In this document: piece by piece, positions 5,613 through 48,323 of the stretch
Layout of the letters: each line of letters starts with the position of its first letter
How positions within the stretch are numbered: the first letter of the stretch is position 1
Source of the DNA: a virus
Strand: one strand, 5' to 3'
Length of the DNA stretch: 48,968 bases
IMG/VR virus record: IMGVR_UViG_3300017917_001961
Span: 1-48,968 of that record
Notes under the pieces: model-generated
Databases searched by the model: none
Told to the model about the DNA's origin: nothing
The model's input: only the letters and a program-made list of their open reading frames with translations
Made by a program: the position numbers and the translations under genes

Positions 5613-5768
5613 ATGGGGAGGATAAAAAAATCAGAAGAAGATAAAAAAATAAAAATAGGAATTAGTATTGATAGAACATTATTTAATCAACTAAAAAAAG
5701 ATAAAATAATTCCATCAAGATTTTTTGATAAATCATTAAAGGAGTATTATGGAAAAAAAAATATGTAG
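5613..5768 (+). CDS. Small ribbon-helix-helix-like protein, cassette A
   Basis: 51 residues: a basic N-terminus (MGRIKKSEEDKK), a predicted beta strand (KIGISID), helix RTLFNQLKKD and a second helix FDKSLKEYYGKK. This is the size and layout of Arc/CopG/ParD-type RHH DNA-binding proteins, though that rests on pattern only. The ATG at 5613 is chosen because it matches the MGR starts of the related proteins at 11605 and 47513. The gene overlaps the HNH gene at 5749 by 20 nt, so the two are probably translationally coupled. It may be an autorepressor or DNA-targeting partner of the nuclease. Confidence 0.7.
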   Translation: MGRIKKSEEDKKIKIGISIDRTLFNQLKKDKIIPSRFFDKSLKEYYGKKNM

Positions 5769-6327
5769 TGGTTGTAAAATTGAAAAGGATGTTTGCGAGT
5801 TTCATAAAAGTAAAACCACTGACGGGTATCAGTATAGATGTAAGGAGTGTAAGAAAAAATATTCAAGGATGAATGTTATTAAAGAAAATGACCGCAAGAT
5901 TCGTTGGGCAACAAATAACCCAGATAAAATAAAAAAATCTAAACAAAAATATTATTCAAATAATTCTGATAAAGAAAATTTCCGAAATAACAAGTATTCT
6001 CAAAATAGAAAAAAAACAGATATCATTTATAAATTATCATGTATTTCAAGGACAAGATTATATGAATTTCTAAAAATAAAAAATATAACAAAGAAAAATA
6101 AAACATTTAACTATATTGGATGCTCCCCTAAATTCCTTAAAGAATATTTAGAGTCCAAATTTATTGTTGGTATGTCGTGGGATAATCATGGAGATTGGCA
6201 CATTGACCACATAATTCCATTGAGTTCTGCGAAAACAGAAAAAGATGTGTATAAACTCTGCCACTATACTAATCTTCAGCCATTATGGGCTAAAGATAAT
6301 TTAAAAAAAACCAATAAAATATTGTAA
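5749..6327 (+). CDS. HNH homing-type endonuclease, cassette A
   Basis: 192 residues. An N-terminal zinc ribbon (CSGC near residue 5, CKEC near residue 32) is followed by a basic middle region and a C-terminal HNH nuclease domain: WHIDHIIPLSSA, then LCHYTNLQPLWAKDNLKK. The His-Asp-His and Asn residues of the HNH metal site are all present, so it should be active. GGAG at 5741-5744 precedes the ATG. It is one of six paralogues in the window. Free-standing HNH genes of this kind in T4-like phages are selfish elements that cut cognate alleles. It lies just upstream of the glycosyltransferase operon. Confidence 0.85.
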   Translation: MEKKICSGCKIEKDVCEFHKSKTTDGYQYRCKECKKKYSRMNVIKENDRKIRWATNNPDKIKKSKQKYYSNNSDKENFRNNKYSQNRKKTDIIYKLSCISRTRLYEFLKIKNITKKNKTFNYIGCSPKFLKEYLESKFIVGMSWDNHGDWHIDHIIPLSSAKTEKDVYKLCHYTNLQPLWAKDNLKKTNKIL

Positions 6328-6384
6328 TACCTCTATACTCTTTTTTATTATATTTTTTATTATTAATACTAAATCTATAATAAT

Positions 6385-7653
6385 ATGAGTAAAATTTTTA
6401 TACAATGCGCAGCTTTTTGTGATCCACAATTAGTTCCAACTATTAAGGATATGTTAGCTAATGCAAAAAAACCAAAGAACTTGGTATTTTCAATTGCAAG
6501 ACAATTTAACCCTTCTGATGGTTTTGATAATTTAGATGAATGGAGAGGAGATAAAAGGTTTAAAATTCTAGATATTCCATATGAGGAATCCAAGGGAGTT
6601 TGCTGGGCTCGTAATTTATGTCAGCAATTATATGATGGTGAAACATATACAATGCAAATTGATTCCCACATGAGATTTATTAAAGATTGGGATGATATCT
6701 TAATTAAAATGATTAAGGGTCTCCAAAAAGATGGATACAAGAAACCTTTACTTACGGGTTATGTTCCATCTTTTGACCCTGAAAATGACCCTGCGGGACG
6801 GGCTCAAGATGCTTGGAGAATGGTATTCGATAGATTTATTCCTGAAGGTGCGGTATTCTTTTTACCTGAAACAATTCCAGGTTGGAGAGAGATGACCAAA
6901 CCAGTTCCAGCAAGATTTTATTCTGCTCACTTTTGTTTTACATTAGGCGCATTCTCAACAGAGGTTCAACACAATCCTGAATATTATTTTCACGGTGAAG
7001 AAATTTCAATCGCAGCAAGAGCGTATACTTGGGGTTATGATTTATTTCACCCACACATTCCTGTTGTTTATCATGAATATACCCGTAAAGGTAGAACGAA
7101 ACAGTGGGATATTGATAAAACGTGGGGAGATAAAAACAAACATTCACATTTAACAAATAGAAAATTATTCGGTATGGATGGAGAAATCCAAGAAGGTCAC
7201 GATGGTCCGTATGGTTTTGGGACTATAAGGACTTTAAGGGATTATGAAAAATATGCCGGGTTATTATTTGAAAAAAGAGCGGTTGATAAAAATTGTTTAG
7301 ATAAGAACTACCCGCCAAGTCCGTATAATTTTGAAACAGAGGAAGACTGGAAAAATTCGTTCTCAACCATATTTAAACATTGTATCGATATTGGATACTC
7401 TCAAGTACCTGAAAAAGATTATGATTTTTGGGTTGTTGCATTCCATAATTCAAAAGATGAAACTCTCTATAGAAAAGATTCAACTAAACAAGAAATTGAA
7501 GGATATATGAGAGATCCTGATAAATATTGTAAAATTTGGAGAGAGTTCCCAACAACTGAATTACCTACATATTGGGTTGTTTGGCCGCACTCGGAATCAA
7601 AGGGATGGTGTGATAGAATCACAGGTCAATTAAATCACAATGTTGTAAGTTAA
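6385..7653 (+). CDS. GlcNAc-transferase-like glycosyltransferase (GT60-like)
   Basis: 422 residues. The N-terminus (IFIQCAAFCDPQLVPTIKDM) and IARQFNPSDG match the start of the GlcNAc (Skp1-type, GT60) family. MQIDSHMRF with the Asp-X-His sugar-nucleotide/metal motif is at residues 91-99, and YFHGEEISIAARAYTWGYD near residue 201 resembles the family's second conserved block. Known family members transfer GlcNAc to hydroxyproline or Thr in proteins, including mucin-like substrates. No signal peptide or membrane segment, so it should act in the cytoplasm of the infected cell. It is the first gene of a four-gene operon, and its stop overlaps the next ATG by 1 nt. The target is inferred to be the phage's own Thr-rich proteins or the host envelope. 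Confidence 0.75.
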   Translation: MSKIFIQCAAFCDPQLVPTIKDMLANAKKPKNLVFSIARQFNPSDGFDNLDEWRGDKRFKILDIPYEESKGVCWARNLCQQLYDGETYTMQIDSHMRFIKDWDDILIKMIKGLQKDGYKKPLLTGYVPSFDPENDPAGRAQDAWRMVFDRFIPEGAVFFLPETIPGWREMTKPVPARFYSAHFCFTLGAFSTEVQHNPEYYFHGEEISIAARAYTWGYDLFHPHIPVVYHEYTRKGRTKQWDIDKTWGDKNKHSHLTNRKLFGMDGEIQEGHDGPYGFGTIRTLRDYEKYAGLLFEKRAVDKNCLDKNYPPSPYNFETEEDWKNSFSTIFKHCIDIGYSQVPEKDYDFWVVAFHNSKDETLYRKDSTKQEIEGYMRDPDKYCKIWREFPTTELPTYWVVWPHSESKGWCDRITGQLNHNVVS

Positions 7654-8387
7654 TGAATTTTAATAATATACCAAAATTTGTGGTAAATTTAGAAAGACGA
7701 CCCGATAGATTAGAACATATCAAAAAAGAGATGGACTATATCGGATGGGATTTTGAATTGTTTAAAGCTATTGATTTGAATAATCATGGTGGATGTACAT
7801 TATCTCATGTTGAGATATTAAAAATCGCAAAAGAAAGAAATTATGAATCAATTATGGTGATTGAGGATGACTGTACATTCTTACCATACTCAAAAGATTT
7901 AATTAGTAGAATTGAAATTGAAACCAATAATTTTGAATTTGGAATTATAAACTTGTCTCCAACATTAAACAGACCAGTTAATCGTTGCGAAGAACTTACT
8001 TTGTTTTTAGATATAACAAACCTTCCTCCAAAAAAAGATTATGAAAGAGGTATCTTTGCAACAAATATGATAATTTATCATAACTCAATTTATGATAAAG
8101 TTATTGAAATGGAAAAACCCGAAATCTTGGGTTATTATGCGATCGATGATTATATATATCAATTTGTATTACCATTTAAACAAAGTTATACTCCCATACT
8201 TCCAATTGCACCACAAATGAGTAGTTGGTCAGATGTTTCAGGAGGAATGTATAATAATTTTTATACTCAAACATATAATTGGAATTTATATAGTCCTTGT
8301 AAAATACCTGGTGAATATTTAAATGGAACACTAACACAAGATTTAAAAAATAAAAAAGAACATAAAGAATTTTATTATGTCAGTTAA
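7653..8387 (+). CDS. Glycosyltransferase family 25
   Basis: 244 residues. PKFVVNLERRPDRLEHIKKE (residues 7-26), GCTLSHVEILKIAKE (48-62) and VIEDDCTF (69-76) are the hallmark blocks of GT25, the LPS galactosyltransferase / procollagen galactosyltransferase family. EDD is the metal-binding DXD equivalent. The gene overlaps the previous one by 1 nt and the next by 11 nt, implying co-translation. The substrate cannot be read from sequence. Because GT25 includes collagen galactosyltransferases, the collagen-like fibre at the start of the window is an attractive target; host lipopolysaccharide is the alternative. Confidence 0.8.
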   Translation: MNFNNIPKFVVNLERRPDRLEHIKKEMDYIGWDFELFKAIDLNNHGGCTLSHVEILKIAKERNYESIMVIEDDCTFLPYSKDLISRIEIETNNFEFGIINLSPTLNRPVNRCEELTLFLDITNLPPKKDYERGIFATNMIIYHNSIYDKVIEMEKPEILGYYAIDDYIYQFVLPFKQSYTPILPIAPQMSSWSDVSGGMYNNFYTQTYNWNLYSPCKIPGEYLNGTLTQDLKNKKEHKEFYYVS

Positions 8388-9264: not shown

Positions 9265-10927
9265 TATAACGTTAGTAACAGGGATTTGGGATATTGGTAG
9301 AGGAGAACTTACCGAGGGATGGTCAAGACCATACCAACATTATTTAGATAAGTTTGAAAAACTATTAGAAATAGATGAGAATCTAATAATTTTTGGCGAC
9401 GAAGAGCTCCAAGAATTTGTTTCAAAAAGAAGAAGTCCTGAAAACACTCAATTTATTTTAAGACCGTTATCATGGTTTAGAGAATCTGAATTTTTTAATA
9501 AAATACAAAGAATTAGAAATAGTGAGAATTGGAAAGGTTTGGCAGGATGGTTGAGAGAATCGACTCAATCTAGATTAGAAAACTATAATCCATTGGTTAT
9601 GTCAAAAGTGTTTCTTTTACATGATGCCAAGATTATGGATAAATTTAATTCTGAATATATGTTTTGGATTGATGGAGGTCTTACCAATACTGTACATCCA
9701 GGATATTTCACACACGATAAAGTGTTGGATAAACTATCCAAATACATATCAAAGTTTAGTTTTATTTGTTTTCCATATGATGCCGAGAATGAAATACATG
9801 GATTTGAATATAATAAATTAAATTCAATTGCTGGAGATAAGGTTAATAAAGTTGCTAGAGGTGGATTTTTTGGAGGACCAAAACACACCATTACGGATAT
9901 TAATGGGATTTATTATGGACTATTAAAATCAACTTTAGATGAAGGATATATGGGTACTGAAGAGTCGATATTCAGTATTATGTGTTATAAACATTCTGAT
10001 TTAGTTAATTATTTTGAAATAGAATCAAATGGATTAATTGGGAAGTTTTTTGAGGATTTAAAAAATGATTCTCTCAAAGCCAAGTCCGAAACTATAATAG
10101 TTCCAAATACATTAGATGTTAACAAGGTAGGTCTTTATGTAATAACATTCAACAGCCCAAAACAGTTTAAAACATTAATTCAATCAATGTTAGAATATGA
10201 TAAAGATTATATTCTAAAAACGCAAAAATTCTTATTAGATAACTCAAGTGATTTATCCACAACAGAAGAATATTCTAAAATTTGTGATGAATTTGGATTT
10301 GAGCATATAAAGAAAGATAATTTAGGCATTTGTGGTGGAAGACAATGGATTGCAGAACATTTTGCAAATGAAACCGATTTAGATTATTATTTATTTTTTG
10401 AAGACGATATGTTCTTTTATCAGAAAGATGGGGTTTGTAGAAATGGATTTAATAGATTTGTTCCAAATTTATTTACAAAATCATTAGAGATTATTAAAAA
10501 AGAAAGTTTTGATTTTTTAAAGATGAATTATTCCGAATTCTATGGAGATAATGGAACTCAATGGTCTTGGTATAATGTTCCACAACACGTTAGAGAAAAG
10601 TTTTGGCCAGGTAAGAATAGATTACCTGAAATGGGATTAGACCCTAACGCACCAAAAACCGTATTCACAAATGTTTTATCACATAAAGGAGTTCCATATG
10701 CAACAGGTGAAATTTATTTTTGTAACTGGCCTCAAATAGTATCAAGGACTGGAAACAAGAAAATGTTTTTGAATACGACATGGGCACATCCATTTGAACA
10801 AACATGGATGAGTCATATGTATCAATTAATGATGGAAGGTGAATTAAATCCTGGTCTTTTACTTCTCACACCAACCGAACACGACAGATTTGACCACTAT
10901 GATAGAAATTTAAGAAAAGAATCTTAA
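9257..10927 (+). CDS. Bimodular glycosyltransferase (HtrL/YibB-like plus GT-A domain)
   Basis: 556 residues in two modules. Residues 1 to about 270 are HtrL/YibB-like (TLVTGIWDIGRGEL at the start, MFWIDGGL at 135-142, GGFFGGPKHTI near 203), paralogous to the preceding gene. Residues from about 290 form a second GT-A-like domain (VGLYVITFNSPKQFKTLIQS, GICGGRQWIAEHF, FFEDDMFF with EDD at 382-384, and TTWAHPFEQTW near the end). It is the last gene of the operon. Its stop overlaps the stop of the inverted HNH gene (10924-11469) by 4 nt, so the cassette was inserted exactly at the operon's end. The second domain looks like a GT2-type transferase, but the family is uncertain. Confidence 0.7.
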   Translation: MSNITLVTGIWDIGRGELTEGWSRPYQHYLDKFEKLLEIDENLIIFGDEELQEFVSKRRSPENTQFILRPLSWFRESEFFNKIQRIRNSENWKGLAGWLRESTQSRLENYNPLVMSKVFLLHDAKIMDKFNSEYMFWIDGGLTNTVHPGYFTHDKVLDKLSKYISKFSFICFPYDAENEIHGFEYNKLNSIAGDKVNKVARGGFFGGPKHTITDINGIYYGLLKSTLDEGYMGTEESIFSIMCYKHSDLVNYFEIESNGLIGKFFEDLKNDSLKAKSETIIVPNTLDVNKVGLYVITFNSPKQFKTLIQSMLEYDKDYILKTQKFLLDNSSDLSTTEEYSKICDEFGFEHIKKDNLGICGGRQWIAEHFANETDLDYYLFFEDDMFFYQKDGVCRNGFNRFVPNLFTKSLEIIKKESFDFLKMNYSEFYGDNGTQWSWYNVPQHVREKFWPGKNRLPEMGLDPNAPKTVFTNVLSHKGVPYATGEIYFCNWPQIVSRTGNKKMFLNTTWAHPFEQTWMSHMYQLMMEGELNPGLLLLTPTEHDRFDHYDRNLRKES

Positions 10928-11469
10928 ATAATAATTTTATTTCCTTTTTTTAAATTATCCTTGGCCCATAAAGGTTGTAAATTTTTGTAGTGACATAACC
11001 TAATAAATTCTTCCTCATTTTTTGCGGATGATAGAGGGATTATGTGGTCAATATGCCATCCGTTTAATCCGTAGTTATCCCAAGACATATTATCTAAAAA
11101 TTTAGATTCAAGATATAATTTAAGTGAAGGTATGTCAATTCCCAACATATCTACGGTTTTTCCTTTTTTATAATTGTTTTTAACTGCAATTTTTATTCTT
11201 GTTCTTATACTAATTTTTAATTTATAAAGTAGGTCCGTATTTCTTCTTTTTTTATTTTTATTTATTAGATTTTTTGAATTTTTTTGATACCATTTAATAC
11301 GATATTCTTTATTTTTCTTTGGGTTTGCGGTATTAAAATCCATAGATATTTTACAATGACATTTTTTACAGAATCCTCTCGGAACTATTAATCCCTTACG
11401 ATTTTTTCTCGTGTTAAATTCGGAGATATTTTTCTCAATACCACATTTACTGCATATTTTTTTTTCCAT
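10924..11469 (-). CDS. HNH homing-type endonuclease, cassette B
   Basis: 181 residues. Zinc ribbon CSKC (residues 6-9) and CKKC (residues 35-38), basic linker, C-terminal HNH domain with WHIDHIIPLSSAKNEEE and LCHYKNLQPLWAKDNLKKG. All catalytic residues are present. It runs against the direction of the surrounding genes and is convergent with the glycosyltransferase operon. The first codons overlap the end of the RHH gene at 11447-11605 by 23 nt. Confidence 0.85.
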   Translation of the reverse strand: MEKKICSKCGIEKNISEFNTRKNRKGLIVPRGFCKKCHCKISMDFNTANPKKNKEYRIKWYQKNSKNLINKNKKRRNTDLLYKLKISIRTRIKIAVKNNYKKGKTVDMLGIDIPSLKLYLESKFLDNMSWDNYGLNGWHIDHIIPLSSAKNEEEFIRLCHYKNLQPLWAKDNLKKGNKIII

Positions 11470-14985: not shown

Positions 14986-15147
14986 ATGAGAAAAAAATTA
15001 AAAACAGAAGAAGAAAAGAAAACTAAAGTATCGGTGGCATTAGACCCTGAGTTATTATCATACTATAGGTCGTTACATATTAATCTTTCTTCATTAGTGA
15101 ATGATTTACTTAAAAAGTATAGAGAAAGTGGAAATAAAAATTTGTAG
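14986..15147 (+). CDS. Small ribbon-helix-helix-like protein, cassette C
   Basis: 53 residues: basic start MRKKLKTEEEKK, strand TKVSVALDPE, helix LLSYYRSLH, turn INLS and second helix SLVNDLLKKYRES. The INLSSLVN(D/K)LLK core is shared with the cassette D protein, and the layout matches RHH transcription factors. It ends at the TAG 15145-15147, inside the start of the HNH gene (20-nt overlap). It lies 48 nt after the DNA polymerase stop. Confidence 0.7.
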   Translation: MRKKLKTEEEKKTKVSVALDPELLSYYRSLHINLSSLVNDLLKKYRESGNKNL

Positions 15148-15736
15148 TAAATGTAATGAGGTAAAAAATTATTATGATTTTAATAAATCAAATAATAAAA
15201 AAAACGGATTGCGTTCTGAATGTAGGGTGTGCCAAAATTTTTTGGCGAAAAAATATAGGGAAAAAAATTGTGAAAAAATTAATCAATCTCATATCGAATG
15301 GAAGAAAAATAATCCTGAAAAATATAGATTACATAAGAAGATTAATAAAATAACATATAGAGTAAAACATAGTGATAAAGTTAGAGAACATCATAGAAAA
15401 TATATGAATGAAAAATATAAAAATGATATCTTTTATTCATTATCATCTAAACTTAGAAGTAGATTAAATATTTTTATAAAATCAAAAAATATTAAAAAAC
15501 AAAACAAAACATTTGAAATTATTGGTTGTTCTCCAGAGTTTCTTAAAATTTATATAGAAAACCAATTTACCGAAGGAATGTCTTGGGAGTTAATGGGTAA
15601 ATATATTCATATTGACCATATCATACCTCTTTCATCCGCAAATAACGAGGAGGAGGTTTACAAACTTTGTCATTACACCAATTTACAACCATTATGGTCT
15701 GAGGATAATCTTAAAAAAGGGGATAAAATACTTTAA
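15128..15736 (+). CDS. HNH homing-type endonuclease, cassette C
   Basis: 202 residues from a GTG start at 15128. This start is chosen over the in-frame ATG at 15101 because it gives VEIKICSKC, aligned with MEKKICSGC, MEKKICSKC and METKVCSKC in the sister cassettes, and reproduces the 20-nt overlap with the RHH gene. Zinc ribbon CSKC (residues 6-9) with CRVC near residue 34; HNH core HIDHIIPLSSANNEEE and LCHYTNLQPLWSEDNLKKG. The metal site is complete. It is convergent with the 15733 gene (4-nt overlap). Confidence 0.85.
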   Translation: MEIKICSKCNEVKNYYDFNKSNNKKNGLRSECRVCQNFLAKKYREKNCEKINQSHIEWKKNNPEKYRLHKKINKITYRVKHSDKVREHHRKYMNEKYKNDIFYSLSSKLRSRLNIFIKSKNIKKQNKTFEIIGCSPEFLKIYIENQFTEGMSWELMGKYIHIDHIIPLSSANNEEEVYKLCHYTNLQPLWSEDNLKKGDKIL

Positions 15737-16068
15737 GATTGCTTCAATCCATCACTAGATAAAATATACCAGTTTCCGCTAGCAAATCTAAATTCAACAC
15801 AAGAGAATTTATCCATAACAATCTCATCATACTCCTCATCAATCTTGCCTATATCAGGTTTGACGGTGAGGAGTGTCATGGATTTAACAACGGTATGATC
15901 TGTGGTTTTTGAATCTAAAATAATTTCAGAATGAGAAACACCTCTAACTATTATACATTCTTCTCCATTTGTGTGATAATCTAATTCTGAAACTATTGAT
16001 ACTTCTGAAGTTTCAATCACATTTCCGTTTATTATTCTTCTTGATGGGATTGTTTTAAGTATTGCCAT
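15733..16068 (-). CDS. Small beta-rich protein of unknown function
   Basis: 111 residues, beta-rich, ending in VEFRFASGNWYILSSDGLKQ. No family recognised. It is the last gene of the minus-strand block, 4 nt after the stop of the gp13-like neck gene. This suggests a virion or assembly protein made with the neck. The size and composition would suit a small head or neck decoration protein. Confidence 0.6.
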   Translation of the reverse strand: MAILKTIPSRRIINGNVIETSEVSIVSELDYHTNGEECIIVRGVSHSEIILDSKTTDHTVVKSMTLLTVKPDIGKIDEEYDEIVMDKFSCVEFRFASGNWYILSSDGLKQS

Positions 16069-16072
16069 AAAA

Positions 16073-17200
16073 TTATATTACATATATTTGACGAGGCATT
16101 GCTCTGAATTTCATTTGCTTATTTAAATTCTCGGCAATAAGAGCCTCTCTTTCCATAACTTTTTCAGGCCTGAGTCTTGTTAACCAACCTTCAGCACCGA
16201 TAAGTTCTTCTAATAATTTAGTTTTTTCGTCTTTACCTTCAGTTAAAAGACTTGTATAATCCATAGTAATTTCAGAGTCTGGTGTTTTTAAATTACCACT
16301 ATACTTTCCTCTTACTCTTCCTAACGTTTCTTTAACATATGCCGTAAACCATCTTCTAACCCATTGCTTACCAGGAGCATTTAAATCCTCCCAAGACAAG
16401 TCTTCCATAGGAACATCTGTTGGTAATTTGATTACATCAGGGTTGGACTTTAAACAATCCGCTCTGTTATCAGGTGTTGTATCATAGTACCAATACCAAA
16501 CAGCTTTACCAACATATAAGTTATAGTTAGACCAGTTAAATTTACCACCAGGCGTGTTATAAAGCTGTATTGCCTTTTTTCCGTCAGGTAAGCCTGTTAT
16601 TCTATATGTTAAGGAACCACCCAAGATTCTATTAAGAATATTTGCTTCTTGCATTCTAATTAGATAGTCAAATCCTGACATCATAAAGTAAGAACCTTGA
16701 TATCCCATTTGAGCGTATCCCGCTTCATTTGCACCTAAACCAATACCACCAAAACCAAATCCACCGAGACCACCTAATCCAAACGCAGTCCAAGCCTGAT
16801 TACTAAACCACAAAAGTTCATTTACCTCACGTCCCGCAGGAATTTCATAGATCTGCTTATTTGCTTCAAGAATAAAATAATCTTTTTTAAGAACCCAAGG
16901 ACCCGTTGTTTGTAAACCAACAATTTTAGAATATGAATACGAGAATTGTTGTTCAAAATCCATAGTTCTGGTTATCAATGCATTTGCAACAGATTTTTCA
17001 GTCATATTAAGGTTAACTAGATTAACCCATTGACTGTCAATCAACCATTGCAAAATGTATTGTTCATAATCTTGAATAGATAGTTCCATTAAAGAATCTA
17101 ACATTTCATCTTCTATCTCAACGCTTCTGAGCGGAGCACCCAATAGGTGTTTAACCCTGGTATATATTTTTGACCTTTCTGGTTCTGGAATAACTGCCAT
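16073..17200 (-). CDS. 13: Neck protein, T4 gp13-like
   Basis: 375 residues. The N-terminal block YTRVKHLLGAPLRSVEIEDE, followed by a helix with SIQDYEQYI, matches the start of T4 gp13 (LGAP, then V-E-L/I and an acidic helix). A hydrophobic Gly-rich loop (GFGFGGIGLG) lies near residue 150. The C-terminal WVRRWFTAYVKETLGRVRGK region and the final charged helix also fit gp13. gp13 forms part of the head-completion and neck complex with gp14. This copy is on the opposite strand from the gp14/gp15-like genes at 22669-24228. A TATTTATTTG motif ends 1 nt before its ATG. Confidence 0.65.
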   Translation of the reverse strand: MAVIPEPERSKIYTRVKHLLGAPLRSVEIEDEMLDSLMELSIQDYEQYILQWLIDSQWVNLVNLNMTEKSVANALITRTMDFEQQFSYSYSKIVGLQTTGPWVLKKDYFILEANKQIYEIPAGREVNELLWFSNQAWTAFGLGGLGGFGFGGIGLGANEAGYAQMGYQGSYFMMSGFDYLIRMQEANILNRILGGSLTYRITGLPDGKKAIQLYNTPGGKFNWSNYNLYVGKAVWYWYYDTTPDNRADCLKSNPDVIKLPTDVPMEDLSWEDLNAPGKQWVRRWFTAYVKETLGRVRGKYSGNLKTPDSEITMDYTSLLTEGKDEKTKLLEELIGAEGWLTRLRPEKVMEREALIAENLNKQMKFRAMPRQIYVI

Positions 17201-17217: not shown

Positions 17218-18756
17218 TTATTCTATTTCGTGTAATAATGAACTAACATTAAAAATGTATTGGTTCTCATTACTGATAGGTTTATTGTCAAATATCATTA
17301 CCCTGTTAGTCTTTGGATTAATGAATATCAACCAATCGACATTATATGGTTTAACATTTCCCGTATTTAATAATTCAATTCTGTCTTTAATTTTTGAGGC
17401 ACTTGAAAATGGTTTAACTTGTGCGGTATATGGTTTACCATTTAAATTAATAATCAAATCAACTCCCTTAAAGGCATCCAGTTTTTGTCCATGACCGCCA
17501 ATCTTTTCAACTTTAGCGTCACCCTTAAAATGAGTTTCTATTTTCTTATACACGTTATCTTCAGATTTTTGACCTCTATCCCACAATTTCTTAAGAACTT
17601 TAATAATGTTGATAAAATCTTCATTATTTTTTGTAAAAATTTCTTTTCTAAAAAAATCTAATGCCTTTATAAATCTCACTAATTCTTTATCGGTTCTTTT
17701 TTCTTTATCTTCAAATTTAAAAAGTTTTTCTGGTTTATCGATTTTTTCAATTTCTTTATTAACCGCTTTAACCAATAAACAAAATGTGTTAAAGTTTGTA
17801 TTAAGGTTGTTTAAAACCGACCTACCTTCTTTTGATTCTACACCATAAAACCCTGACATTTCTTTTGTGTTACCATCAACCCAAAATTGACCAAACACTT
17901 TTTTCAAAACATCAGTAACACCATCTTGATATATTCTTTTTGTTTTTGAATTATTAATTAAATCTTTATAGGCTAAAATTTCTTTTGAGTCGCAAAACCG
18001 AGCGTCTTTAGATTCGGTTATTAATTTTTGTAGATTAACGGATTCAAGTAATTTTGTTTCGGTTCTCATCTCATAAAGCTTGGATACAAAATCCCAATTC
18101 ACTACTTTCCAAAAGTTTGTGATATACTCGTCTCTTTTGTTTCTATATTTCAAATAATATGCATGTTCCCATAAATCAAGACCAAGAATTGGAAATCCAC
18201 CACCTTCGATTACATTCATTAGTGGATTATCTTGATTTGGAGTTGACATTATTTTTAATGTATTTTTGGCGGTTAAAACCAACCAAACCCAACCAGAACC
18301 AAATCTATCTTTAGCCATAGATTCAAACTTTTTTTTGAATTCTGGAAAACTACCAAACTGTTTGGTTATTTTTTTATATAGTTCGCCTTTTAATTTTTTT
18401 GGATCTGGAGTTAACATATTCCAAAACAATGCGTGGTTAAATGCGCCGCCGGCATTATTTCTAATATTTTTATCAAAACGACTAATCGTTTTAATAATGT
18501 CCTCTAACTCTAAATCTCCGTGTTTTTTCTTGGAGAGTGCGTCATTTAATTTATCCACATAACCTTTATAATGTTTGTTGTAGTGAAAATTCATCGTTTC
18601 TGCATCGATAAACTGTTTGAGGGCGGAGTAAGAATATGGTAATTTTTCTATTCCAATCTTCTTCATTTCGGTAATCAACAACTCTTTTTCGGTATCAATT
18701 TGTTCTTTAAGTATTTGTGTTTCTAGTTGTTGAATTTTCTCTTCTATTTTATTCAT
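17218..18756 (-). CDS. Fe/Mn superoxide dismutase fused to a nuclease-like domain
   Basis: 512 residues. Residues 38-230 form a full Fe/Mn superoxide dismutase: metal ligands His58 (in FHYNKHYKGYV), His108 (FNHALFW), Asp194 and His198 (LGLDLWEHAYYLKY). His62 and Tyr66 match the active-site gateway residues, and NQDNPLM (174-180) matches the MnSOD outer-sphere Gln position. A basic coiled region (1-35) precedes it. Residues 240-400 are helical and unassigned. Residues 400-490 contain GVDLIINLNGKPYTAQVKPF, a D-X12-QXK arrangement (Asp433, Gln446, Lys448) typical of PD-(D/E)XK nuclease folds. It is transcribed with the helicase and neck genes. SOD activity is likely; the nuclease assignment is tentative. 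Confidence 0.8.
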   Translation of the reverse strand: MNKIEEKIQQLETQILKEQIDTEKELLITEMKKIGIEKLPYSYSALKQFIDAETMNFHYNKHYKGYVDKLNDALSKKKHGDLELEDIIKTISRFDKNIRNNAGGAFNHALFWNMLTPDPKKLKGELYKKITKQFGSFPEFKKKFESMAKDRFGSGWVWLVLTAKNTLKIMSTPNQDNPLMNVIEGGGFPILGLDLWEHAYYLKYRNKRDEYITNFWKVVNWDFVSKLYEMRTETKLLESVNLQKLITESKDARFCDSKEILAYKDLINNSKTKRIYQDGVTDVLKKVFGQFWVDGNTKEMSGFYGVESKEGRSVLNNLNTNFNTFCLLVKAVNKEIEKIDKPEKLFKFEDKEKRTDKELVRFIKALDFFRKEIFTKNNEDFINIIKVLKKLWDRGQKSEDNVYKKIETHFKGDAKVEKIGGHGQKLDAFKGVDLIINLNGKPYTAQVKPFSSASKIKDRIELLNTGNVKPYNVDWLIFINPKTNRVMIFDNKPISNENQYIFNVSSLLHEIE

Positions 18757-18762
18757 AAATTT

Positions 18763-18789
18763 GGATTATTCAATATATAAATAATCCAG
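18763..18789. other. Perfect hairpin between HNH E and the SOD gene
   Basis: TGGATTATT (18763-18771) pairs with AATAATCCA (18781-18789) around a 9-nt AT loop. It spans the stop codon of the lone HNH gene and lies just upstream of the SOD-fusion start. There is no T tract on the minus strand, so it is either a weak terminator or a leader hairpin. Confidence 0.5.
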
Positions 18790-19446
18790 TTTGTTGGATT
18801 TTACCAAATTATCTTTCGCCCATAGTGGTTGGAGATTTGTATAATGACATAGTTTGTATAATTCTTCTTCGGTATTTGCGGAGGATAATGGGATTATGTG
18901 GTCAATATGAATATCCTTACCCAATTTATCTAAAGTCATTCCTTCTGTGAATTTATTTTGAATATATATCATAAATTCAGAATAGGATATCCCTAATATA
19001 CTTTCTGTCGATTCTGATTTTGACTTTAAGTATCGGTTAATTCTCCTTCTTAAATTTGATTTTACTCTATATAATGGATTTGTTTTACGATATTCTTTTT
19101 GTTTTTGTTTAGAATATTCTAAACGAACTATTTTGTTTTCATCGTAATATTTTTTATTGTAATTTTTTAAATAATCCGACCTTTGTTCTTTATTATGTAT
19201 TAACCAATTTTTACGACTTTCATTAACTTTATCTTTATTGTTGGTTGCCCATTCCTTTTTTTGTTCTTTTCTTTTTTTATTGTATTTTTTGTTTTGTTCT
19301 TTAATTTTGTTTTCATTTGATAATTTATATTCATTACCACATTCAATACAATTTGACCTTAGCCCATCTTTTGATTTTTTATTTTTATAAAAACTTGTGA
19401 ATGGTTTTAAGGTCGAACATTTACTACATATTTTTTGCTCTGTCAT
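18766..19446 (-). CDS. HNH homing-type endonuclease E (no RHH partner)
   Basis: 226 residues. Zinc ribbon CSKC (residues 7-10) and CIEC (residues 34-37), a long Lys/Asn-rich linker, and HNH core HIDHIIPLSSANTEEE with LCHYTNLQPLWAKDNL. The metal site is complete. Unlike cassettes A-D it has no RHH gene upstream; the helicase stop is only 24 nt away. It sits within the minus-strand block in the same direction and separates the helicase from the SOD fusion. Confidence 0.85.
   Translation of the reverse strand: MTEQKICSKCSTLKPFTSFYKNKKSKDGLRSNCIECGNEYKLSNENKIKEQNKKYNKKRKEQKKEWATNNKDKVNESRKNWLIHNKEQRSDYLKNYNKKYYDENKIVRLEYSKQKQKEYRKTNPLYRVKSNLRRRINRYLKSKSESTESILGISYSEFMIYIQNKFTEGMTLDKLGKDIHIDHIIPLSSANTEEELYKLCHYTNLQPLWAKDNLVKSNKLDYLYIE
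18775..18784 (-). promoter_or_regulatory. TATTTATATA motif before the SOD fusion gene
   Basis: TATTTATATA on the minus strand, 18 nt before the ATG at 18756, partly inside the hairpin 18763-18789. Confidence 0.35.
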
Positions 19447-19470: not shown

Positions 19471-21228
19471 TTATTTTCTTGAATTATTAATTCTATTTAA
19501 TATATCTTCCGCCACATCTGCAGGATTTTGGTCATCACCCATCACCGTAGCAATAACTTTTTTCTTTGCATTTACAATGTCATAGATTATGCCTTCAATA
19601 GTGTTTTCAAAAATAGGATAATAAACTAATACATTATTTTTTTGACCATAACGGTATGCTCTATCTTCAGCCTGTGCCATATCTGAAGGTAAAAATGATA
19701 AATCATTAAAAATAACAGTCTCACCCGCGGTTAAAGTTAAACCAACACCAGCCGCCTTTATGTTACCAACAAAGATTTTAATTTTTTCGTTGTCTTGGAA
19801 ATCATCAACACTTTTTTGTCTCTCAGGTTTTGACATTGAGCCGTCGACCTTAACTGCTGATTTCCCAAAATGTTCACATATTTTATTAAGGGAATCTGTA
19901 AAATTACAAAAAACAATTACCTTCTTACCTTGTTCGATAATATTCTCCGCAAGTTCTATTGTTTGTAATATTTTTTCATTTGCAATGATTTGCCTAACCT
20001 TAGTCAGTTTACTAAATTGAACAGTTAAAGACTTAGATTCCTCAGGGTTTTTATCGTACCAATTATAGTATTCACCCATAACTTCTTCATACTCTTTGGA
20101 TTTTAATCTCAAGTAAACAGGGGTGATTATCTTGTCAGGGAGGTCAAGGACATTTTCCTTTAATCGTCTTAATATTAATCCCGATGTCCTATCTCTAAGC
20201 TCTTCCAAGTTCGACGCACCTGTCACATTCCAAACTTTTCTACCTCCGACATTAAATTGATAACCTGAACAATATCGTATTGCATATGCCATCCAATTCT
20301 TTGCGACAGGAGAATCAACAAGACTTAATAAATTGAAATAATCCATTGGTCTTGAGGTCATCGGAGTACCAGTTAATAACCACAATCTTTCGACTTTATT
20401 TGCAATATCATTAATTAACTTTGTTCTTTGCGCGGTTCCGTTTTTAATGTAGTGAGCCTCATCAACCACAACTAAATCAAAATTAGCGTCGAGAATTTGA
20501 GATTCTTTTTTCTTTTTTGTGTCGTGGAAATTTTTAATAATGTCGTAATTTATTATGACAAAATCATGCTCGGTACTGAAATTTTTACCTTCACATATGA
20601 ACACTGATTTGTCAGAATAATTTGCAATTTCTCTTTGCCAGTTAATCTTTAAACTCGCAGGACATACAATCAAAACTTTTTTAGCCCCCGTCTCAAGAGC
20701 GGCAATAATTGTAGATGTAGTTTTACCAAGACCCATATCATCGGCCAAGATAAATTTTTTGTTCTCAACAAGTTTTTGGATTGCTTCTTTTTGGTGATTG
20801 AGTGGAGGGCGATGAGAATATTTTTCATAATTAATGACAACATCTTTAACGGTATTATCTTTAATTATTGCGGCTTTCGGTAACCAAAAATCGTGAAGTT
20901 GTTCGGATTCAAAAACCTTACCCCAAATATGAAACGCTTTATCTTTCTCTGCTAATAATTTTTCCACCCAAACTCTGGTTGGTACTTCCGTATATAATTT
21001 ATCATCGGCGAGCCTTTGTGCAAAATAAGCATCAAGAATTACCCACTTTTTTGCAACTTTTGGTTGTTTATCATGATTATTAATAATATATTCGGCCTGA
21101 CTTCTTGTAGGATAAAATTTTTTATTGAGTTGAGATTTTCTCTTTAATTCAAGTAAATAATTGTTTCCACCATCATACCCCTCAAGAAGGGATAACGCCT
21201 TTGACTCTAAACTTATTTCATTCATCAT
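19471..21228 (-). CDS. SNF2-family DEXH helicase
   Basis: 585 residues. Motif I ADDMGLGKT (162-170), motif II DEAH (256-259), motif III LLTGTP (284-289) and the C-terminal RecA-like lobe ending with AQAEDRAYRYGQK (motif VI) define a complete SNF2-type ATPase. T4 UvsW is a related superfamily 2 helicase, but the DMGLGKT and RYGQK signatures point to the SNF2/HepA/SMARCAL1 side. The probable role is DNA remodelling, fork reversal or displacement of proteins during replication. About 130 N-terminal residues are unassigned. The start overlaps the SET gene stop by 4 nt (ATGA), so the two are probably co-translated. Confidence 0.9.
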   Translation of the reverse strand: MMNEISLESKALSLLEGYDGGNNYLLELKRKSQLNKKFYPTRSQAEYIINNHDKQPKVAKKWVILDAYFAQRLADDKLYTEVPTRVWVEKLLAEKDKAFHIWGKVFESEQLHDFWLPKAAIIKDNTVKDVVINYEKYSHRPPLNHQKEAIQKLVENKKFILADDMGLGKTTSTIIAALETGAKKVLIVCPASLKINWQREIANYSDKSVFICEGKNFSTEHDFVIINYDIIKNFHDTKKKKESQILDANFDLVVVDEAHYIKNGTAQRTKLINDIANKVERLWLLTGTPMTSRPMDYFNLLSLVDSPVAKNWMAYAIRYCSGYQFNVGGRKVWNVTGASNLEELRDRTSGLILRRLKENVLDLPDKIITPVYLRLKSKEYEEVMGEYYNWYDKNPEESKSLTVQFSKLTKVRQIIANEKILQTIELAENIIEQGKKVIVFCNFTDSLNKICEHFGKSAVKVDGSMSKPERQKSVDDFQDNEKIKIFVGNIKAAGVGLTLTAGETVIFNDLSFLPSDMAQAEDRAYRYGQKNNVLVYYPIFENTIEGIIYDIVNAKKKVIATVMGDDQNPADVAEDILNRINNSRK

Positions 21229-21620
21229 ACAACATTAGTGTGGGTTCTCCCGTCTGACCAATAGTTTACATCTCCATAGTAAACCAATATTTCTTCTTCA
21301 GGGTTTATATCTTTTATTGCGTAAAACTCAAAAGATTCGTTAAGAATGTTTGACCTCCATAAAGCGTTTGGTGTGTTTGAATGATTATATAATCCCGCCC
21401 ACCCAAAACCAATAACTTGTTTATCCCATTCTCCACCTTGAGGCCAATTAAATCTATAATCAATTAAAACAGGGCTTGATTCACCTTTTGGAATACCTAA
21501 ATCCAATATCGGGCATTCTTCAATAATCTCACCCTCTTTTATAAATTCAGACGCAAAAACTCCTAATCCATGTATTGGACTATGAGAAACATATAATTTA
21601 TGCGGAGGTTTAATTTTCAT
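21225..21620 (-). CDS. SET-domain protein (putative lysine methyltransferase)
   Basis: 131 residues from the ATG at 21620; the open frame extends to 21680, but this ATG gives the compact domain. SET features in order: SPIHGLGVFASEFIKEGEII (residues 14-33), LYNHSNTPNA (77-86, the NHS S-adenosylmethionine and substrate motif) and EEEILVYYGDVNYW (108-121, the GEE/YG motif). It is a minimal SET domain without pre-SET or post-SET parts. Such proteins methylate lysines; the phage target is unknown. It is the first gene of the minus-strand block, overlapping the SNF2 helicase gene. Confidence 0.8.
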   Translation of the reverse strand: MKIKPPHKLYVSHSPIHGLGVFASEFIKEGEIIEECPILDLGIPKGESSPVLIDYRFNWPQGGEWDKQVIGFGWAGLYNHSNTPNALWRSNILNESFEFYAIKDINPEEEILVYYGDVNYWSDGRTHTNVV

Positions 21621-21635
21621 GCAAGCTTTGTGGGA

Positions 21636-21645
21636 AATATAAATA
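21636..21645 (-). promoter_or_regulatory. TATTTATATT motif before the SET gene
   Basis: TATTTATATT on the minus strand, 15 nt before the ATG at 21620. It forms a divergent pair with the plus-strand motif at 21655. Confidence 0.4.
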
Positions 21646-21654
21646 AAAATAAAG

Positions 21655-21664
21655 TATTTATCAA
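21655..21664 (+). promoter_or_regulatory. TATTTATCAA motif before the 21668 gene
   Basis: TATTTATCAA ends 3 nt before the ATG at 21668. Together with 21636 it marks the divergent start of two operons. Confidence 0.35.
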
Positions 21665-21667
21665 TAT

Positions 21668-21991
21668 ATGAAAATGACATTAGAGGTATTAAATAAACTA
21701 ATAAGAAGGGCTCTTGATTTGATAAAACCAGAAGGAGTTAAATACATAGATTTCAATTTGAGTCCAGTTGATCTTGGTTCTGATGATGAATATTACTTGG
21801 ACATAACTTATGTGGTTCCTGATGATAGTGAATTTCTTAGGTCATCTAACATGAGAGAATCGGATTTAATTAGAAGAGAGTGGAATAAGATAATTAGAAG
21901 TACAATAGAGTCTTATTTTGGTGTTAAAACAATAATAATACATTCGACTGGCATACAAGCAGAATCGTACTATAAAAAACAAAATTACTAA
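21668..21991 (+). CDS. Conserved-looking small protein of unknown function
   Basis: 107 residues, mixed alpha/beta: LEVLNKLIRRALDLI helix, YIDFNLSPVDL strand, YYLDITYVVPDD strand, a helix with IRREWNKIIRSTIESYF and a final strand KTIIIHSTGI. No family recognised and no catalytic motif seen. It begins the plus-strand structural block and is followed 2 nt later by HNH F. Confidence 0.6.
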   Translation: MKMTLEVLNKLIRRALDLIKPEGVKYIDFNLSPVDLGSDDEYYLDITYVVPDDSEFLRSSNMRESDLIRREWNKIIRSTIESYFGVKTIIIHSTGIQAESYYKKQNY

Positions 21992-21993
21992 AA

Positions 21994-22668
21994 ATGGTGG
22001 AATTAATTTTAATTAAAAAAGATGATAAATTATTTCGGATTTGTCGTAAATGTAATTGTGAACTTGAGGTTATTAATTTTGACAAATGCGGTAAAACTAA
22101 ATGTGGGTATAGATCTGTTTGTAAGTTATGCAGAAGAATTGAAAATGAAAAAAAAATTCATCAATTAAAAGTGACAAGAAAACAATATTACGAAACAAAT
22201 AAAAAAAAGGTGTTAGATCGTGCAAAAACATATAGAGAAAAAAACAAAGATAAAGTCTTGGAGTCGGCAAAAATATATAGAGAGAATAATAAATTAAAAG
22301 TTGCAATTTCAAAAAGATTATCAACAAAAAAAAGATATGAATCTGACGGGTTTTTTAGGTTGAGAACACAGTTAAGAAAATACTCCAGACGATATTTTAA
22401 CATCAAAACAACACCTAAAAAAACTATGGATATTATAGGATGTGATCCTAAAGAATTGAAAAACAAAATAGAATCTCAATTTGAGATATGGATGTCTTGG
22501 GATAATTATGGATACGGAAAAAATAAATGGGTTATTGATCACATAATCCCACTTTCTTCCGCAACGAATGAAGAAGAGCTTTATAAATTATGCCATTATA
22601 GCAATCTTCAACCTCTTTCTTGGGAAGAGAATATGAAAAAAAGTGATAAACTTGAAAAATTCAATTAA
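21994..22668 (+). CDS. HNH homing-type endonuclease F (no RHH partner)
   Basis: 224 residues. Zinc ribbon CRKC near residue 17 with CKLC near residue 43, then duplicated RAKTYREKNKDK / SAKIYRENNKLK segments in the linker, then HNH core WVIDHIIPLSSATNEEE (first His replaced by Val, DH pair kept) and LCHYSNLQPLSWEENMKK. The WHIDH His of the sister proteins is changed, so the activity of this copy is less sure. It fits exactly between its neighbours (2 nt and 0 nt gaps) and has no RHH gene. Confidence 0.8.
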   Translation: MVELILIKKDDKLFRICRKCNCELEVINFDKCGKTKCGYRSVCKLCRRIENEKKIHQLKVTRKQYYETNKKKVLDRAKTYREKNKDKVLESAKIYRENNKLKVAISKRLSTKKRYESDGFFRLRTQLRKYSRRYFNIKTTPKKTMDIIGCDPKELKNKIESQFEIWMSWDNYGYGKNKWVIDHIIPLSSATNEEELYKLCHYSNLQPLSWEENMKKSDKLEKFN

Positions 22669-47512: not shown

Positions 47513-47674
47513 ATGGGAAGAAAAAAAGTTGAAGATGAAAAAAAGAAAGTAAAGTTAGCGGTGTCTATTGACCCTGAATTACCTCAATACTTTAAAGATA
47601 AATCTATAAACTTATCTTCTCTTGTTAATAAGTTGTTAAAAGAGTATATTAAAAATGGAGACAAAAGTTTGTAG
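47513..47674 (+). CDS. Small ribbon-helix-helix-like protein, cassette D
   Basis: 53 residues: MGRKKVEDEKKKVKLAVSID, helix PELPQYFKDK, turn INLS and helix SLVNKLLKEYIKNG. It is most like the cassette C protein (shared INLSSLVN(D/K)LLK). RHH layout as in the other cassettes. The TAG stop 47672-47674 lies inside the Cys-Ser codons of the HNH zinc ribbon, giving the same 20-nt overlap as cassettes A and C. Confidence 0.7.
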   Translation: MGRKKVEDEKKKVKLAVSIDPELPQYFKDKSINLSSLVNKLLKEYIKNGDKSL

Positions 47675-48323
47675 CAAGTGTAGTAAAGAAAAAAATGTTT
47701 GTGAGTTTGGTAAGTTAAAATCTTCTAAAGATGGGTTATTGTATTCTTGTAAAGAGTGTAATAATAAAAGGTCGGTAGATTATCGTAAAAATAATCCTGA
47801 AAAAGTTTTAGAATTGACACGAAATTGGACTAAAAAAAATCCTGAATGGGTTTACAATCGACATAAAAAATACAGATTGGAAAATTCAAAAAAATTAAAC
47901 GAATTACGTATAGATTGGTTAAATAATAATCCTGAAAAAAGAAAAGAATATCGGAAAAATTATAAACCAAGAAAGTGGGAACAAAGAAAAGAACGAAGAA
48001 ATAGTGACCCTATTTTTAATCTAATGAATAGAATGAGATGTAGAATATGGAAATATTTAAATATTTTTGAAATAACCAAAAAAAATAAAACATTTGATAT
48101 TGTTGGATGTTCTCCTGAATTTTTGAAAGAATATTTAGAAAAACAATTTGTAACTGGAATGACTTGGGAAAATAGAGATAAATGGCATATTGACCATATT
48201 ATTCCATTATCTTCAGCAAAAACAGAAGATGAAGTTTACAAATTATGTCATTATACTAATTTACAACCTTTATGGTTTGAAGATAATATTAGAAAAGGAA
48301 ACAAAATTTTATTCACACTTTAA
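47655..48323 (+). CDS. HNH homing-type endonuclease, cassette D
   Basis: 222 residues. Zinc ribbon CSKC (residues 6-9) and CKEC near residue 33, a long linker with repeated NNPEK motifs (NNPEKVLELTRNW, NNPEKRKEYRKNY), then HNH core WHIDHIIPLSSAKTEDE and LCHYTNLQPLWFEDNIRKG. Complete metal site. It is inserted between the uvsX and rnh genes. Confidence 0.85.
   Translation: METKVCSKCSKEKNVCEFGKLKSSKDGLLYSCKECNNKRSVDYRKNNPEKVLELTRNWTKKNPEWVYNRHKKYRLENSKKLNELRIDWLNNNPEKRKEYRKNYKPRKWEQRKERRNSDPIFNLMNRMRCRIWKYLNIFEITKKNKTFDIVGCSPEFLKEYLEKQFVTGMTWENRDKWHIDHIIPLSSAKTEDEVYKLCHYTNLQPLWFEDNIRKGNKILFTL

Follow-up and report, generated by a model that had tools for sequence, protein, structure and literature searches.

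The minus strand of a viral DNA stretch of 48,968 nucleotides (IMG/VR record IMGVR_UViG_3300017917_001961, hereafter the window) carries a gene at positions 17218–18756, stop codon included, which encodes a 512-residue protein joining a Fe/Mn superoxide dismutase (SOD) domain to a PD-(D/E)XK-like nuclease region. Its bounds rest on the open reading frame and on homologues. The fusion is real and conserved, and to our knowledge it has not been described as a fusion. The reading favoured here, to which we give a probability of roughly 0.45, is that of a late, head-packaged protein whose two enzymes are separated by a protease. It rests on active-site residues, fold, conservation, synteny, an upstream motif and a tag-like linker, all shown by computation; enzymatic activity, packaging, cleavage, delivery and target are inferred.

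Gene arrangement and conservation of the fusion

Translation of 17218–18756 on the plus strand gives many stops, and the open reading frame matches these bounds exactly on the minus strand, which also carries the four neighbouring genes whose positions are given in this paragraph. A neck (head–tail adaptor) gene (phrog_211; 16073–17200) lies downstream after a gap of 17 nt and is followed by a gene for a 111-residue protein (15733–16068) that is conserved in this position. The conserved upstream neighbour is an SNF2-family helicase gene (phrog_62; 19471–21228). The order SNF2, SOD gene, neck, 111-residue protein and DNA polymerase, the last on the opposite strand, is shared by nearly all of the sampled loci that extend far enough to reveal it. 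In the window an HNH/endonuclease VII-like gene (18766–19446) is inserted between the SNF2 and fusion genes, and no such insertion was found there in the relatives examined.

Up to six similar HNH/endonuclease VII-like genes occur in the 49 kb of the window (5749–6327, 10924–11469, 15101–15736, 18766–19446, 21994–22668 and 47655–48323). HNH family matches were run for those at 5749, 10924, 15101 and 18766, and the remaining two were assigned by sequence likeness only. A SET-domain protein (21225–21680) adjoins the SNF2 gene, and its homologue in a 735-kb phage (L095:4951–5388) adjoins the stand-alone nuclease gene of that phage.

A first scan of IMG/VR returned 80 loci with full-length fusions of 512 or 517 residues at 73–81% identity, and 75 distinct full-length fusion proteins were collected in all. 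A second, less biased sample, obtained by a pattern scan for the SOD alone, comprises 79 SOD loci, and the fusions within it reach down to about 40% identity. The occurrence of the full-length fusion in 75 distinct proteins across many independent contigs rules out an assembly artefact. Over 50 pairs the median dN/dS is 0.023 for the SOD and 0.042 for the C-terminus, showing that both halves are under strong purifying selection. Contigs bearing the fusion reach 317–326 kb and encode gp23-type capsid proteins, and the phages are therefore regarded as T4-like jumbo phages.

Relatives are also present in public collections. At least one has been submitted simply as a ‘superoxide dismutase’ (A0A6J5L953). 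In the BFVD structure library the C-terminal fold is shared by a 501-residue ‘superoxide dismutase’ from an uncultured phage (30% identity) and by a 1113-residue marine phage protein. No description of an SOD–nuclease fusion was found in the open-access literature searched; subscription papers and preprints were outside the search.

The SOD domain

The protein begins with an N-terminal helix (residues 1–30; 18667–18756) that ends in LLITE just ahead of the SOD, and E30 at its end is kept in 113 of 115 aligned fusions. The SOD domain follows (residues 36–230; 18067–18651) with every ligand kept. Pfam recognizes Sod_Fe_N at residues 37–115 (E 8e-23, 81.1 bits against a cut-off of 27) and Sod_Fe_C at residues 123–226 (E 8e-41, 138.6 bits against a cut-off of 20.9), and the best PDB sequence match of the fusion protein is the SOD 6gsc (5e-60). 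The metal ligands H58, H108, D194 and H198, the gateway pair H62/Y66, and residues G104, Q175, W196, E197 and Y201 all agree with an E. coli SodA-type sequence and are invariant in 115 of 115 fusions. A Gly/Gln pattern is usual for Mn-type enzymes, and G104 and Q175 suggest that the fusion SOD is of this type. The SOD half is complete and likely to be catalytically competent, although both activity and metal are inferred from residues, with no assay.

It is conceivable that the SOD fold serves as a structural or sensing module (a scaffold, a metal store or a redox switch for an attached effector) and not as a needed catalyst. In favour of this, the SOD stays constant in relatives while the modules attached to it vary, with a metallopeptidase-like N-terminus in some and several kinds of C-terminus. 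Against it, no variation is seen at any tested catalytic or second-sphere residue, not even at Q175 and Y66, for which a scaffold would have no use, and we regard this explanation as very unlikely.

The fusion SOD shares with Mn-type SodA and the wider Fe/Mn SOD family the whole domain, its ligands and its second-sphere residues, being 49% identical to the E. coli SodA-type sequence and 46–56% identical to SODs of Bacteroidota. It differs from that family in the added N-terminal helix and C-terminal nuclease, and also in its place in the tree, where the phage fusions make up a group of their own, set apart from nearly all bacterial SODs by a long branch of 0.81 (98/100). The nearest cellular SODs are mostly from Bacteroidota, and a host in this phylum is inferred. 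Stand-alone SODs of other jumbo phages (Vibrio phage 2.275.O and the Pseudomonas MIJ3/PA5oct group) are likewise of the Fe/Mn family, but they are unfused proteins of 182–189 residues, 28–30% identical, not placed by neck genes and separate in the tree.

Two further observations concern the sampling of SODs. An SOD from a Fluviicola MAG (L309:2920–3645) falls among the phage SODs, though only weakly supported there and with a long branch, and may come from a mis-binned phage contig. Phage-collection records such as OR845917 and OR850395 are short unannotated ‘phage’ contigs that resemble host DNA with ordinary bacterial SODs.

The C-terminal nuclease-like region

The C-terminal region comprises a helical middle region conserved with stand-alone homologues (residues 253–394; 17575–18000) and a PD-(D/E)XK-like nuclease core (residues 395–512; 17221–17574). 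No usable sequence match for residues 237–512 was found in Pfam or the PDB, the match to phrog_5018 is weak (E 8e-4), and a pattern scan found no C-terminal relatives in bacterial genomes. An AlphaFold model of the C-terminal region, made from an alignment of 41 sequences from which the row of the 735-kb phage (L095) was left out, has a pLDDT of 84 and a pTM of 0.69; a single-sequence model of the whole 512-residue protein was not usable (pLDDT 35). The top PDB matches of the C-terminal model in Foldseek are PD-(D/E)XK enzymes, with I-Ssp6803I first and the SPARDA nuclease, Hjc and NhoI also among them. Probabilities reach 1.00, yet the best E value is only 3.5e-3 and TM-scores are low over the whole query, which we attribute to the absence of the helical middle region from the matched structures.

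The core contains the block D433-x12-Q446-x-K448, and E399 upstream completes the site. All four residues are invariant in 115 of 115 fusions, and the set is also kept in the stand-alone homologue. The structural model and the invariance of the site reject a chance PD-(D/E)XK motif, and it is very likely that the C-terminus adopts this nuclease fold; DNA cleavage is inferred. The predicted fold and the E-D-QxK site are held in common with I-Ssp6803I, Hjc, the SPARDA nuclease and NhoI, whereas the lack of a Pfam or PDB sequence match and the conserved helical region ahead of the core set this C-terminus apart from them.

These results bear on an earlier, sequence-only reading of the gene. Its claims that the protein is phage-encoded and placed next to a neck gene have computational support, and those that the four metal ligands and the gateway His/Tyr are kept and that a C-terminal D-X12-Q-X-K block suggests a nuclease fold also held, E399 and the structural model being added here. 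It had named two findings that would refute it, a C-terminus without a PD-(D/E)XK fold and a fusion that is an assembly artefact without relatives; neither AlphaFold and Foldseek on the first point nor IMG/VR on the second refutes it. Its statement that no SOD–nuclease fusion was known holds within the literature searched.

The linker and its resemblance to a possible head-targeting tag

The two domains are joined by a tag-like linker of 22 residues, RTETKLLESVNLQKLITESKDA (residues 231–252; 18001–18066), with candidate LxE|S sites after E238 and E248. Among 75 sequences K235, L236 and E238 are invariant while positions 237, 240, 241 and 243 vary, and across 115 fusions E238 is kept in all 115, E248 in 110, and position 246 is always I, L or M. 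An LxES...LIxE pattern is found at the exit of the SOD also where the C-terminal module differs. Of 31 non-redundant linkers, 14 carry the tag pattern, whereas shuffles give 0.23 and the 31 control windows none. The regular expression was composed after viewing the linkers, so these counts overstate independence; 17 of the 31 fail its strict form, and some depart from the pattern, such as L077 (IIKE|F). At the candidate site ahead of the SOD the glutamate is followed by M and not by A, S or G.

A similar tag, for example MSKIIRLTENDLIRLVNKVIKEQ, stands at the N-terminus of many small proteins in two relatives of the phage, G003 (loci L242–L258) and G004 (L467–L483). Its strict form is matched by 10 of 491 open reading frames in G003 and 5 of 494 in G004, where shuffled sequences give 0.05 and 0.03, respectively, and by no reversed proteins. 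A tblastn search of named phages with the 24-residue tag gave no match, the query probably being too short. The tag may be a head-targeting signal, but this remains tentative, as the tagged proteins have no known function and there are no virion data.

G003 encodes a head maturation protease and a gp23-like major head protein. The capsid protein has a predicted processing site, S(H/F)LINE|ASS, that is the same in four of four genomes; LINE|ASS is taken to be this site on the model of T4 gp23. The linker resembles it in having the form LxE|S. T4-type proteases cleave after glutamate, and the N-terminal targeting sequences of T4 internal proteins are removed by gp21 (PMC5694885, PMC3012670, PMC9958956). 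On the grounds of the likeness to the tag, the match to the capsid site and the T4 precedent, the linker is read as a targeting and cleavage signal, an inference by analogy with no cleavage data behind it.

The upstream motif and timing of expression

A late-promoter-like motif, TATTTATA, lies about 20 nt upstream of the fusion start codon (18776–18783, minus strand), within the 3′ end of the inserted HNH gene. In G003, a relative of 321 kb, this 8-mer precedes 37 of 231 genes against an expected 2.1, and in G004 it precedes 30 of 246. The G003 genes for scaffold, portal, tail tube and baseplate have it, those for protease, sheath and neck have one-base variants of it, and it is absent ahead of SNF2, the glycosyltransferases and a gene that we take to be RecA-like. 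The fit to ‘late’ is good but imperfect: DNA polymerase is also preceded by a weaker form, TATTTATT, and the major capsid gene has no motif within 120 nt upstream. TATTTAT occurs within 60 nt upstream of 75 of 75 fusion genes, mostly at −24 to −30, although these are related sequences and not independent. Read in the direction of the gene itself, the T4 late promoter TATAAATA was rejected as the motif: it lies upstream of only 8 genes in G003 and 11 in G004, far fewer than the 37 and 30 that have its reverse complement TATTTATA. The motif is a possible late promoter of these phages, without transcript data.

The motif bears on a second alternative, in which an auxiliary SOD keeps the host alive during infection and the nuclease-like domain is a passenger such as a captured homing endonuclease. 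The top PDB fold is indeed a homing enzyme (I-Ssp6803I), the window holds several HNH homing-type genes, other jumbo phages have stand-alone SODs outside virion clusters, and an Fe/Mn SOD gene of phages has been put forward as auxiliary (PMC12542629). Against this, neither an intron nor an interrupted gene is present, the nuclease site is invariant in 115 of 115 fusions with a dN/dS of 0.04, and the virion-gene motif lies ahead of 75 of 75 fusion genes. We consider this alternative unlikely.

Exchange of modules among relatives

The two halves also occur apart. The C-terminal region is found without SOD in the 735-kb phage LR756501 (L095; hhalign probability 97) and in L167, and no Fe-SOD match was found in the LR756501 genome. 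The SOD stands alone at the same locus (about 237 residues) in L362, L399, L403, L407 and L414. In L363 and L377 the SOD (224 residues) and the nuclease (271 residues) are separate genes overlapping by one base, the nuclease gene starting MKNSFVLNE|EK, and the split is a natural break at the linker.

Larger architectures are seen as well. Proteins of 690–734 residues carry a domain with HEWVH...NEDEANA ahead of the SOD and other C-termini after it; this arrangement of metallopeptidase-like domain, SOD and variable C-terminus is found in L411, L369, L356, L349 and L361. A relationship of the L411- and L369-type C-termini to the fusion nuclease was not supported by hhalign, and that they are nucleases is no more than a possibility drawn from motif reading. 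A 906-residue protein (L393:1908–4625) combines the SOD with two nuclease-like modules in a row, joined by a tag-like stretch, INLTESITKKELLNEV.

Some further proteins of these phages were recorded. Proteins of about 493 residues in L370 (3896–5377) and L392 (3930–5408) have a zinc-ribbon-like N-terminus and a C-terminus related to the fusion nuclease, and sit between p170 and p345 homologues. L363 has five tandem paralogues starting MKVKVTE(D/E)KLYP between SNF2 and the SOD gene (6191–7881). A short motif, DPYGEE(D/N/E)W, and N-termini like M(I/K)xxFxxF are frequent in proteins of the very large phages L095 (LR756501) and L167.

A third alternative is that no cleavage takes place and the intact fusion works inside the cell at a late stage of infection, its nuclease handling phage DNA (such as branched or concatemeric molecules during packaging) while the tethered SOD shields the DNA or the metal site from superoxide. 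This is possible: the Holliday-junction resolvase Hjc is among the close folds, the gene is placed with the SNF2 helicase and neck genes, and most of the relatives sampled have the two activities either fused or side by side. Against it stand the SOD-only and nuclease-only relatives described above, from which it follows that tethering is not essential, and the linker glutamates, which are kept while adjacent residues vary.

Proposed function

Under the favoured reading the protein would be a late precursor of a Mn-type SOD and a PD-(D/E)XK nuclease, with a linker doubling as head-targeting and prohead-protease signal. As the head is assembled, cleavage by a gp21-like phage protease behind the glutamates of the linker (LLE|S and/or LITE|S) would release the SOD and the nuclease as two distinct internal proteins of the head. 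The SOD would shield virion DNA, incoming DNA or the injection step from superoxide, and the nuclease would find its DNA substrate in the newly infected cell or in the head. The weakness of this proposal is that the likeness of tag and linker is a short pattern, and that no cultured phage, proteomics or assay stands behind it. Virion delivery, which had only been floated from sequence alone, now has indirect support from the late-type upstream motif and the tag-like linker; between protection from oxidation and superoxide sensing, both also put forward then, the evidence does not choose.

In a bolder version, the protein family would be a modular head-packaged effector, with a constant SOD, swapped nuclease or metallopeptidase-like modules and a head protease cutting the tag-like joints. 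On balance we lean slightly against it.

Relation to known systems and significance

The closest concept is the phage polyvalent protein (Iyer et al., 2017; PMC5512222), which likewise unites disparate enzymes, SNF2 and zincin-type domains among them, in a single polypeptide, and for which capsid packaging and later separation were proposed, as here; that the fusion would be injected with the DNA early in infection is only inferred. The fusion meets the polyvalent criterion of at least two disparate enzymatic domains in one phage polypeptide, and its relatives show larger architectures. It differs in belonging to a gp23-type phage and in the separation proposed via a head-protease-like site; the word ‘superoxide’ is absent from the main text of that paper. 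With the T4 internal proteins and Alt, which carry a capsid targeting sequence (PMC9958956, PMC3012670, PMC5694885), the system would have in common glutamate-directed gp21-like processing, here only predicted, and it has in common small tagged proteins and a gp23-type head. The T4 targeting sequences are N-terminal, whereas the tag of the fusion is internal with an enzyme on each side, and T4 is not known to have an SOD. Eukaryotic giant viruses are known to carry SOD in their particles (PMC9405923), and Fe/Mn SOD is listed among the auxiliary genes of Microcystis viruses (PMC12542629).

Superoxide control has hardly been considered so far as cargo of a phage particle. Widespread freshwater jumbo phages offer a conserved, putative SOD–nuclease precursor whose candidate cleavage site can be tested, which opens phage-borne superoxide control to experiment, and the tag together with the upstream motif may predict which unknown proteins of these phages enter the head. 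If the bolder reading were true, the phage would bring an antioxidant enzyme activity into the cell along with DNA-attacking enzymes.
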